Shown here piece by piece: positions 21,008 to 25,704 of a DNA stretch of 41,690 nt. The position numbers and the translations under genes were made by a program. Origin of the DNA: Chitinophaga pinensis (GTDB taxonomy: Bacteria > Bacteroidota > Bacteroidia > UBA7662); the NCBI GenBank assembly GCA_945874665.1, contig CAMCHJ010000017.1, forward strand, positions 1 to 41,690. Direction: 5' to 3'. Within the stretch, counting starts at the first letter, position 1. Every line of letters begins with the position of its first letter. Under the pieces are notes generated by a model, which had not been told where the DNA came from, did not search any database, and saw nothing but the letters and a program-made list of their open reading frames with translations.

Positions 21008-21451
21008 ATGAATTACACGAGATTGAATTCCGACCTTGTCGACTTGATTGAAATGCGCAATGAGCTCAATGAACTCGACTTTTCTGACGAATCTTATGAC
21101 GACTTGGAAGATGAAATCCATGATTTTGAGGATACTTTCAACGATAAGTATGGCGATGAGCTAGAAAACGTTTTAGACCGCATCCACGAAGCTATTTGTC
21201 CAGATGTGGAAGTGCTTTTGCCAACCGCCTATCTCGCCAAAGAATACATTCCAAGCGCCATAGAAGAGGGCGCGTTTGACCTAGGTCCAGATGCTGGTAT
21301 TTTGGTTGAAACCATCCTTAAAGATGCTAAAGGCAAGCCTATGGATGCGCGTATTACGTATATACCAAGTCCATTTCGTGTGGTTTTGATCACTAAAGAC
21401 GACATCCGTACCTTGTGGTCGGCCGAACAACCCGACGACTTTAAATTCTAA
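21008..21451 (+). CDS. Conserved-looking small acidic protein of unknown function
   Basis: I do not recognise a named family for this 147-residue protein. The N-terminal half is very acidic and helical (many Asp and Glu between residues 8 and 58, such as NELNELDFSDESYDDLEDE), possibly a short coiled coil. The C-terminal half is mixed, with DVEVLLPTAYLAKEY and a beta-rich ARITYIPSPFRVVLITKDDIRTLW. There is no signal peptide or membrane segment, so it should be cytoplasmic. The following dehydrogenase starts 1 bp after its stop, implying an operon. The promoter box ends 4 bases before the ATG, so the mRNA may be leaderless, or translation may begin at the internal Met16 (21053). Confidence 0.8.
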   Translation: MNYTRLNSDLVDLIEMRNELNELDFSDESYDDLEDEIHDFEDTFNDKYGDELENVLDRIHEAICPDVEVLLPTAYLAKEYIPSAIEEGAFDLGPDAGILVETILKDAKGKPMDARITYIPSPFRVVLITKDDIRTLWSAEQPDDFKF

Positions 21452-22836: not shown

Positions 22837-23598
22837 ATGAGAAAGCTCATTTTGGCTGCATCTGTTTGGGTGATGTTTTTTACGCTGACTGGCTGCAATG
22901 AAAAGCCTGTTGATCCAATTACAAATCCAGAAGAAGCCCCTGTTGTTAAAATGGTTATTAGCCATGAGTTTAACGGACAACGGATCAATTTTAACAGTGT
23001 TGAATACGCTACTACGCATAATTTGGTGAGTTTTGCGGAGTTGAGCTATTTTTTGACTGATTTTGAGTTTAAAAAGGCAGATGGCACCTGGATGCCATTT
23101 GCTTATCAAGCTTTGATCAGGGCGCGTCAAACGCCGGTAGATACTTTGGTATTTACAAATTTACCTAAGGGCGCATATCAAGGCCTGCGTTTTAAATTAG
23201 GTGTTGATTCGGTAAACAACCATGCGGATCCAGCGCTTTGGCCAAACGAACATCCACTTAGCATTATGCGCGGTGGAACCATGCACTGGAGCTGGAATGC
23301 TGGCTATATTTTCTTTAAATTAGAAGGTAGATTCTTTAAAGATGCACCCATTCAAGGTGCATATTCGTACCATATTGGTCGCGACGATTTAATTACGCAA
23401 TATACCTTTGAAGATATTAGCTTCAATTATAACGACAAGGTGGTGGTTTTGCCGATGCGTTTTGAGGCAAAAAACTTCTTTGAAACACCTCACCAGCACA
23501 TGATGCGTGACTCAGCTTTGTTCAGTCACAGCGCCTTTGATGATGAAGTGGCTGAGATTTTACATGGCAATATGTCTAACCTAATCCTGAAAGATTGA
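22837..23598 (+). CDS. MbnP-like copper-site lipoprotein
   Basis: The 253-residue protein has a lipoprotein signal with lipobox LTGC (Cys20), so it sits in the envelope. It resembles MbnP/CorA-type proteins: H43 in VISHEFNGQRINF, SYFLTDFEFKKADG (70-83), GLRFKLGVDSVNNH (116-129), the signature MHWSWNAGYIFFKLEG (149-164) with W151 and W153, and YHIG with H179. In characterised MbnP, copper is held by histidines and a kynurenine made from tryptophan by the partner MbnH. Two di-heme genes follow at 1 bp and overlapping spacing, exactly the expected partner type. That a Trp here is modified, and that copper binds, is inference. No methanobactin gene is present. Confidence 0.82.
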   Translation: MRKLILAASVWVMFFTLTGCNEKPVDPITNPEEAPVVKMVISHEFNGQRINFNSVEYATTHNLVSFAELSYFLTDFEFKKADGTWMPFAYQALIRARQTPVDTLVFTNLPKGAYQGLRFKLGVDSVNNHADPALWPNEHPLSIMRGGTMHWSWNAGYIFFKLEGRFFKDAPIQGAYSYHIGRDDLITQYTFEDISFNYNDKVVVLPMRFEAKNFFETPHQHMMRDSALFSHSAFDDEVAEILHGNMSNLILKD

Positions 23599-23599
23599 T

Positions 23600-24676
23600 A
23601 TGAAGCATGTGTTCTTGCTGAGTCTCTTTTTTGTTGGGTTCATGGCGTGTAAACCAGAACCAAATCCTAAAAAGGAGTACCCTGCGCCAAGGCCGGTGAC
23701 TTTGGCAACAAAGCCATTTTTTCCGCCTGCGGTGATCCCTGCCGACAATCCGCTTACCGTGGAAGGTATTGAGCTAGGCCGACACTTGTTTTATGAAAAA
23801 AAACTCAGTGGCGATAATACGCAATCATGCGCCAGCTGCCACAACCAAGAATTGGCATTTACGGATAACGGCAAGCCTTTTAGTACTGGCATTACAGGAG
23901 CCGTTGGCGTTAGAAACAGCATGCCGTTGTTTAACCTTACCTGGACCAATCGCTTTTTTTGGGATGGCAGAGTACCGACCCTGCGCGCACAAGTACTGCT
24001 GCCTATAGAAGACCCCACTGAAATGCATGAAAGTCTCGAAAATGCCATTCATAAATTAGAACAAACGGCTTTGTACCCCGAATTATTCGGTAAGGCTTTT
24101 GGTGATGAAGTGGTGACTGAGGAGCGTATGGCGAAGGCTTTGGAGCAATTCATACTCTCAATACAATCAACAGATTCAAAATTTGATAAGTTTAGAGTAA
24201 ACCCTGTGTTGAGTCCACTGAGCCTTCAAGAAACACGTGGATTTAATATCTTCATGCGCGAGTTTAGTCCACCCGGTAGCGGCCGACCAGTGGGAGCCGA
24301 CTGTTTTCATTGTCACGGCACCCATCTTTTTACGGCCAATAACTTCACAAACAATGGCTTAGATGAAAGTCCCGCAGTAGGTTTCAGCATCGTAACCAAT
24401 GATCCTAACGATATAGGTAAGTTCAAAACACCAAGTCTACGAAATGTGGGAGTGACAGGCCCCTACATGCACGATGGCCGTTTTGCAACCTTGGAAGAAG
24501 TACTAGAGCACTACAATGCTCACATCAAACAAAGTCAAACCTTAGACGTAAGCCTCAAGTCGCAGGGTATGGGATTGGGTTTAACCACACAGGATAAGGC
24601 TGATATCATTGCCTTTTTACATACGCTTACAGACTCCGTTTATTTGAATAATCCAGCGTATAAGAGTCCATTTTAA
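23600..24676 (+). CDS. MauG/MbnH-type di-heme c lipoprotein (first of tandem pair)
   Basis: This 358-residue lipoprotein (lipobox FMAC, Cys17) has two c-type heme motifs, CASCH (77-81) and CFHCH (235-239), and belongs to the bacterial di-heme cytochrome c peroxidase/MauG superfamily. Matching known landmarks: W121 in FFWDGR corresponds to the tryptophan between the two hemes; E141-M142 correspond to the conserved Glu-Met; no His lies in the TGITGAVGVRN segment where true peroxidases have a displaceable ligand; and Y305 in LEEVLEHYN sits where peroxidases have the axial Met and MauG has its Tyr. These alignments were made by eye. It follows the MbnP-like gene by 1 bp, making it the best candidate for the enzyme that modifies it. 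Confidence 0.88.
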   Translation: MKHVFLLSLFFVGFMACKPEPNPKKEYPAPRPVTLATKPFFPPAVIPADNPLTVEGIELGRHLFYEKKLSGDNTQSCASCHNQELAFTDNGKPFSTGITGAVGVRNSMPLFNLTWTNRFFWDGRVPTLRAQVLLPIEDPTEMHESLENAIHKLEQTALYPELFGKAFGDEVVTEERMAKALEQFILSIQSTDSKFDKFRVNPVLSPLSLQETRGFNIFMREFSPPGSGRPVGADCFHCHGTHLFTANNFTNNGLDESPAVGFSIVTNDPNDIGKFKTPSLRNVGVTGPYMHDGRFATLEEVLEHYNAHIKQSQTLDVSLKSQGMGLGLTTQDKADIIAFLHTLTDSVYLNNPAYKSPF

Positions 24677-25704
24677 TGAAGTGGTGGCCGTTTTTGTTAC
24701 TCATGGCTTTGCTCGCTTGTGAAGACCGTGAAACGCCAAAAGGCACCTTTAGTTTACCTGAAATTCCCGCAAACTTTCCGATTCCAGACAGCATTCGTTT
24801 TTTATCGGAGCAAAGCATCCATCAGATTGAGCTCGGCAGAGCCTTGTTTTTCGATCGTGGCCTGTCACGCGATAGCTCTGTTAGTTGTGCCTCCTGTCAC
24901 AAGCAAGCACTCGCTTTTGGTGATGGCTTAGCGTTTAGCATAGGGGCACATGGTGGTTCAGGGCGCCGAAATGCACCGCCGCTTTTCAACCTTTTTTATC
25001 CGCAGCTCTTTTTCAAAGATGGTGGAATTCCTCGTTTAGAAGAAGTGGCTATGGCACCGATGGACGATCACCACGAGCTGGACCTGCCGTTGCAAGATTT
25101 GTCGCTGCGACTGCGCACCAGTACTTTTTATGTTGATGAAATCAAGCGGATATACAATCGTGAACCCGATCCCTACAGCATTACGCGCGCTTTGATGTGG
25201 TTTCAGTTGAGTTTGGTATCTGCTAACAGCAGGTACGATGATTATCAGTATCGAGACAAAAAGGAAGTTTTAAATGCTCAAGAGCGGAGGGGCCTTGATT
25301 TGTTTTTGAGTGCGCACACCCAATGTGCCAGCTGCCATTCGGGGCCAAATTTTACAGATTTTCAGTTCCACAATGTCGGATTGAATATGGAGGCACATTT
25401 AGATACCGGTAGAGCAAGAATTACAATTAATCCAGCCGACTTTGCTAGGTTTAAAACGCCTAGCCTGCGGAACTTAGGATTTAGCGCACCCTATATGCAC
25501 GATGGCCGCTATTCAAATTTAGAGCAAGTTTTAGCCTATTATAATGGTGGAGGAGATGGTTATCCGGGACAAGACGCACGCATTAAACCTCTAGGCCTAA
25601 CCGAAAAGGAGCTTGAGGACCTCGAGGCTTTTTTATACAGCTTAAACGATTCCGTTTTTGTTAACCATGCCGCTTACCAGCCTTTGGGCGGCTCCCAGGA
25701 TTAA
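24676..25704 (+). CDS. MauG/MbnH-type di-heme c lipoprotein (second of tandem pair)
   Basis: This 342-residue paralog of the preceding protein overlaps it by one base (TAATG). It has lipobox LLAC (Cys15) and heme motifs CASCH at 71-75 and 217-221. By eye, Y289 in LEQVLAYYN occupies the MauG-Tyr position, but the bridging tryptophan is replaced by K114 (FFKDGG), the Glu-Met pair is E134-L135, and H92 lies in the IGAHGG loop where peroxidases have a distal His. It may therefore differ in chemistry from the first enzyme: perhaps a peroxidase, an electron-transfer partner, or specialised for another substrate. Its 3' end overlaps the convergent RND gene by 44 bp. Confidence 0.86.
   Translation: MKWWPFLLLMALLACEDRETPKGTFSLPEIPANFPIPDSIRFLSEQSIHQIELGRALFFDRGLSRDSSVSCASCHKQALAFGDGLAFSIGAHGGSGRRNAPPLFNLFYPQLFFKDGGIPRLEEVAMAPMDDHHELDLPLQDLSLRLRTSTFYVDEIKRIYNREPDPYSITRALMWFQLSLVSANSRYDDYQYRDKKEVLNAQERRGLDLFLSAHTQCASCHSGPNFTDFQFHNVGLNMEAHLDTGRARITINPADFARFKTPSLRNLGFSAPYMHDGRYSNLEQVLAYYNGGGDGYPGQDARIKPLGLTEKELEDLEAFLYSLNDSVFVNHAAYQPLGGSQD

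Follow-up and report, generated by a model that had tools for sequence, protein, structure and literature searches.

The three-gene locus

The window, i.e., the whole stretch of 41,690 nucleotides analysed here, sits on contig C17 of the Chitinophaga pinensis genome G000 (2.29 Mb, 96% complete) and carries, between positions 22837 and 25704, a set of three adjacent genes that encode an MbnP-family lipoprotein (P) and two MauG/MbnH-type di-heme enzymes (A and B):

22837..23598, + strand: P, MbnP-family lipoprotein, 253 amino acids (aa); lipobox LTGC with C20; PF20243; AlphaFold2 (AF2) model compared with 7l6g
23600..24676, + strand: A, clade III MauG/MbnH-type di-heme lipoprotein, 358 aa; PF03150; best Protein Data Bank (PDB) match 6e1c
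24676..25704, + strand: B, clade I MauG/MbnH-type di-heme lipoprotein, the extra enzyme, 342 aa; PF03150; clade assigned from trees

A single base separates P from A, the stop codon of A and the start codon of B share one base (TAATG), and P, A and B alike begin with a lipoprotein signal (lipoboxes LTGC, FMAC and LLAC); this arrangement, which the original prediction had described, is borne out by the open reading frames (ORFs) and the sequence. A survey of the three-gene order, also proposed there, recovered P-A-B in 15 of the 21 genomes of the window's order, with the locus cut by a contig end in four and no MbnP in the remaining two (MbnP in 19/21); B adjoins P-A in 15/15 uncut loci. In comparison with a congener, the proportion of nonsynonymous differences (pN 0.11-0.15) is far below that of synonymous differences (pS 0.75-0.86) in all three genes. 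Because of this recurrence and of pN being much lower than pS, the set is real and chance is excluded; since B is under purifying selection and has kept its hemes, it is not a pseudogene.

The unusual feature of the locus is the second enzyme, and not the presence of an MbnP/MbnH pair without methanobactin. Methanobactin genes are indeed lacking, as had been claimed: MbnB (PF05114/DUF692) has no match anywhere in the 96% complete genome, whereas two control genomes matched. The surprise attached to this did not hold up, since such pairs are the common state, with MbnP in 78 of 296 sampled Bacteroidota genomes, nearly always paired with one di-heme gene, and a 2013 paper (PMC3621798) had already described pairs distant from methanobactin genes. 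The extra di-heme partner, in contrast, is genuine, and B is a conserved, repeatedly assembled and non-equivalent partner of P and A. In the literature searched we found no description of the tandem, or of the fusion discussed below, though this is no proof that none has been published.

P and its candidate copper site

P scores well above the cut-off of the Pfam MbnP family (PF20243; 110.8 bits against 27, E 1e-31) and falls below that of the NCBIfam equivalog TIGR04052 (47.1 bits against 140). Its AF2 model, built from 41 relatives (mean predicted local distance difference test, pLDDT, 89.6), matches 7l6g with a Z score of 18.2 over 204 residues at a root-mean-square deviation of 3.2, while the second-best structure reaches Z 4.7; a profile from 25 relatives of P matched a single solved structure, again 7l6g, the MbnP of Methylosinus trichosporium. 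Together, the Pfam score and the fold match agree with the family assignment made in the original prediction: P is a distant but sound member of the MbnP family. It is encoded by the only MbnP gene in the genome, and its closest named loci are from metagenome-assembled Bacteroidota. The residues of interest are found at the positions claimed:

23281..23295, + strand: M149-H150-W151-S152-W153 of P, the WxW motif within MHWSWNAGY; W151 corresponds to the first WxW Trp of M. trichosporium MbnP in the alignment to 7l6g
23371..23373, + strand: H179 of P, a putative copper ligand; no variation in any WxW-bearing group, and a His of 7l6g stands at the aligned position
22963..22965, + strand: H43 of P; unchanged in every P of the three-gene sets, variable among P of clade III pairs

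M149, W151, W153 and H179 of P align to M, W, W and H of 7l6g, and both Trp residues are invariant among all WxW-bearing relatives in every partner group. In work from 2021, the copper site of 7l6g MbnP reportedly consisted of a kynurenine, formed from the first Trp of WxW, along with His, Met and a solvent ligand.

Two further kinds of family member were observed. MbnP-like lipoproteins with the motif LHWGWLGGY and no adjoining di-heme gene (L049:6195-6989, L057:7020-7814, L059:5864-6658) are encoded in genomes that carry other MbnP sets. Family members without WxW (L065, L082:7849-8712, L216, L218, L225), with motifs such as MEWPEPMGGGYHY, mostly adjoin clade III di-heme enzymes and possibly have a different modification site.

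A and B are di-heme enzymes of different clades

Both enzymes match PF03150 (E 8e-54 for A, 6e-44 for B), and the best PDB match of A is MbnH (6e1c, E 2.7e-48). Neither reaches the equivalog cut-offs of MbnH (TIGR04039; 254 bits for A and 219 for B, cut-off 362.85) or MauG (TIGR03791; 169 and 182 bits, cut-off 443.85). The positions that define their heme sites are as follows:

23828..23842, + strand: A, heme motif 1, C77-H81 (CASCH), of the CXXCH type
23960..23962, + strand: A, W121, inter-heme Trp at the MauG Trp93 position; W in 88/88 clade III enzymes
23990..24022, + strand: A, distal pocket Q131, P135 and E141, spaced as MauG Gln103/Pro107 and BthA Gln267/Pro271/Glu277
24302..24316, + strand: A, heme motif 2, C235-H239 (CFHCH), a sequence that hardly varies in clade III
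24512..24514, + strand: A, Y305, axial Tyr position; Met in classic peroxidases
24886..24900, + strand: B, heme motif 1, C71-H75 (CXXCH)
25015..25017, + strand: B, K114, replacing the inter-heme Trp in the alignment
25045..25047, + strand: B, V124, replacing the distal Gln in the alignment
25324..25338, + strand: B, heme motif 2, C217-H221 (CXXCH)
25540..25542, + strand: B, Y289, axial Tyr position in the alignment

A and B belong to the MauG/MbnH type because each has two CXXCH motifs, carries Tyr (Y305 and Y289) in the column of the Met ligand of the peroxidases 1iqc and 2c1u, and has another residue where classic peroxidases carry the distal His (I98 in A and Ala in B at this column). The description of two MauG/MbnH-type enzymes thus stands. 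The two are not equivalent: they fall in different clades, and B has changed at two of the four active-site positions (Trp and Gln), retaining P128 and E134 of the distal pocket.

The enzyme tree, comprising 194 sequences, with a mixture-model check on 88 rows, divides into three large clades, with A in clade III and B in clade I; B evolves faster than A. The inter-heme Trp is kept throughout clade III, in 13/18 lone clade I enzymes, in 3/15 enzymes of the B type and in 0/9 clade I enzymes of other sets that combine clades I and III. The distal Gln is present in 0/15 B-type enzymes vs 22/23 of the remaining clade I enzymes, and in the B group L043-L062 the Pro and Glu of the distal pocket are changed as well. 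A strict rule by which Trp loss goes with a clade III enzyme encoded at some other place in the genome did not hold, as the genomes of L211 and L226 gave no clade III-like score. Two loci, L273:4587-6753 and L274:4286-6571, contain tandem clade I di-heme enzymes with unusual distal pockets and no adjoining MbnP. The window's genome encodes two further CCP_MauG proteins outside the MbnH-like clades (L069:7375-9315 and L070:9268-10656), one 646 aa in length and extended at its N-terminus, the other with a weak match to a type IX secretion sorting domain.

Assembly of the two-enzyme sets

The tree of P mirrors that of the di-heme enzymes, with the window P grouping with clade III partners; B is without an MbnP of its own. 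Outside the window's order, nine MbnP loci join clades I and III, eight of them in the order P-I-III (L182, L210, L213, L219, L271, L272, L275, L276) and one, L100, as P-III-P-I. The P proteins of these outside sets group with clade I partners (L210 was not part of this test). In approximately unbiased (AU) tests, for which the groups were picked after the first trees had been seen, a single clade for the P of outside sets and window-type P was rejected (p 8e-8, again leaving out L210), and one clade for the clade III enzymes of both set types gave p 0.009 with L210 and p 0.47 without it. One origin for all I+III sets is thereby rejected for P; for the clade III enzymes the rejection hinges on L210 alone. 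The relatives show that the combination was assembled at least twice, and the simplest history would be that two full pairs came to lie side by side, as in L100, followed by loss of either MbnP. The sole set with both enzymes outside the three clades is L227, the P of which lacks WxW.

Fusion of substrate and enzyme in Verrucomicrobiota

In a contig scan, P and an enzyme were found in one ORF at 38 loci, nearly all named Verrucomicrobiota, and Pfam shows both domains in one example. A model of one Verrucomicrobiota fusion (pLDDT 80.6; predicted template modelling score, pTM, 0.75) has halves that match MbnH (Z 30.2) and MbnP (Z 17.9). Many alignments of this model to classic peroxidases begin at residue 150-154, in the LHWSW loop, which indirectly suggests that the WxW loop of the modelled fusion packs on the di-heme domain. 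Because Verrucomicrobiota fuse P with a clade III enzyme, the substrate-type and enzyme-type domains are likely to act together. The fusions within L085-L149 (e.g. L092:2363-4156) are ~580-630 aa long, have an enzyme part of clade III and, in all cases, carry Leu for Met before WxW (LHWxW).

Proposed roles of A and B

The explanation we favour, with a probability of roughly 45%, is that A oxidises W151 of P to the kynurenine of a copper site while B serves as a heme-bearing accessory of P-A. P would be anchored in the envelope, where W151 would be oxidised, most likely to kynurenine, and the modified residue would complete a copper site together with H179 and probably M149. A is favoured for this step because it is the cognate clade III partner of P and has an intact MauG-type centre, and direct action on P is supported by the fusion of P to the same enzyme clade in Verrucomicrobiota. 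B would descend from a second MbnP-enzyme pair whose own MbnP was lost; having kept its hemes and axial Tyr and lost the inter-heme Trp and distal Gln, it may act as an electron relay or docking partner and not as a Trp oxidase. More broadly, and only tentatively, MbnP maturation may be carried out by a two-enzyme unit, in which an intact clade III oxidase works with a clade I protein without an oxidase centre of its own, and which would have arisen repeatedly by merger of pairs and loss of either MbnP.

Several observations weigh against this picture. P is ~20% identical to the MbnP of known structure. The B-type enzymes L060-L062 kept the inter-heme Trp, and the lone clade I enzymes L194, L195, L211, L226 and L229 lost it; as related genes share history, there are 2 to 5 independent contrasts, so that the link between pairing and Trp loss falls short of significance and none can be claimed for it. 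The clade III enzymes of both set types may, once L210 is set aside, form one clade. Loss of the Trp by itself need not silence B, because BthA, which lacks this residue, forms a stable bis-Fe(IV) state according to the excerpt of PMC6405878. The same excerpt suggests, from the conservation of Gln and Pro in MauG and BthA, that these residues take part in the peroxide-binding step.

A less likely reading is a two-step maturation, in which oxidation of W151 by A is joined by a modification that B makes elsewhere on P, e.g. at W153 or at a residue near H43. This would fit the invariance of W153, which equals that of W151, the invariance of H43 only in P of three-gene sets, and the fact that B retains its two hemes along with the axial Tyr and distal Glu. 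W153 is, however, equally invariant in single-enzyme pairs and so does not need B, and B is without the distal Gln held to matter in peroxide binding; moreover, one B group (L043-L062) has altered even the Pro and the Glu.

We consider it rather improbable that B shares no more than a transcript with P and A and has its own target, either a different substrate or peroxide to be scavenged. Clade I enzymes do occur without an MbnP neighbour (L277-L279, L284-L289), and the faster evolution of B than of A would be in keeping with such a role, but the adjacency of B to P-A in all 15 uncut loci of the order, the recurrence of clade I + III sets with MbnP in other families and the single MbnP in the genome all speak against it.

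There is a lesser chance that P has the MbnP fold without kynurenine or copper, the enzymes making another Trp- or Tyr-derived cofactor or another metal being bound. The missed equivalog cut-offs of MbnP and MbnH, the low identity to the known structure and the existence of some family members that lack WxW while lying beside clade III enzymes point in this direction, whereas the WxW and His residues show no exception in the relevant groups and coincide, in the alignment, with those of the copper protein. A tandem duplication that left A and B as redundant copies has next to nothing in its favour beyond their matches to the same families, as the trees rule out such an origin (different deep clades, with outside relatives between A and B) and the two differ at catalytic positions.

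With regard to the surroundings, no link to copper was found for the genes near the set (an aldehyde dehydrogenase, an MMPL transporter and a 147 aa gene). The 147 aa gene (21008-21451, + strand) has no Pfam or NCBIfam match and lies upstream of the set in 12 of the 15 loci, either immediately 5' of P or 5' of the aldehyde dehydrogenase.

Outside methylamine dehydrogenase, the substrate choice and electron destination of MauG-type enzymes are poorly understood. Here, two di-heme enzymes of fixed type have a single MbnP in common, and in one of them the residues that tune the high-valent state are changed, so that single-gene deletions can put the question to the test. For structural studies, the substrate-enzyme chains of Verrucomicrobiota are a single-chain system ready to use.

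Comparison with known systems

Like MauG and pre-methylamine dehydrogenase, the set includes Tyr-ligated di-heme enzymes of a kind that acts on the Trp of a partner, with, in A, the same spacing of distal Gln, Pro and Glu; unlike MauG, A and B score far below the MauG equivalog cut-off. A search for the methylamine dehydrogenase heavy chain gave no match in the genome, but it is uninformative, as no control matched either. BthA of Burkholderia resembles B in missing the inter-heme Trp and differs in keeping, by the excerpt of PMC6405878, the distal Gln that B has lost; an MbnP partner is not mentioned in that excerpt. By description, CorA/CorB and MopE/SACCP of methanotrophs (PMC3912023) are similar in combining a copper protein that holds a Trp-derived kynurenine with an adjoining MauG-like di-heme gene.

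The closest counterpart is the MbnP/MbnH pair of M. trichosporium (7l6g, 6e1c; PF20243, TIGR04052/TIGR04039), with which the window shares the fold of P, the positions of WxW, Met and His, the adjoining MauG-like di-heme gene and, in A, the inter-heme Trp, axial Tyr and distal Gln/Pro/Glu of MbnH. The locus described here departs from that pair in missing both NCBIfam equivalog cut-offs, in the absence of methanobactin genes, in the further di-heme enzyme, from a different clade, that comes after the pair, and in that all three proteins are predicted lipoproteins.
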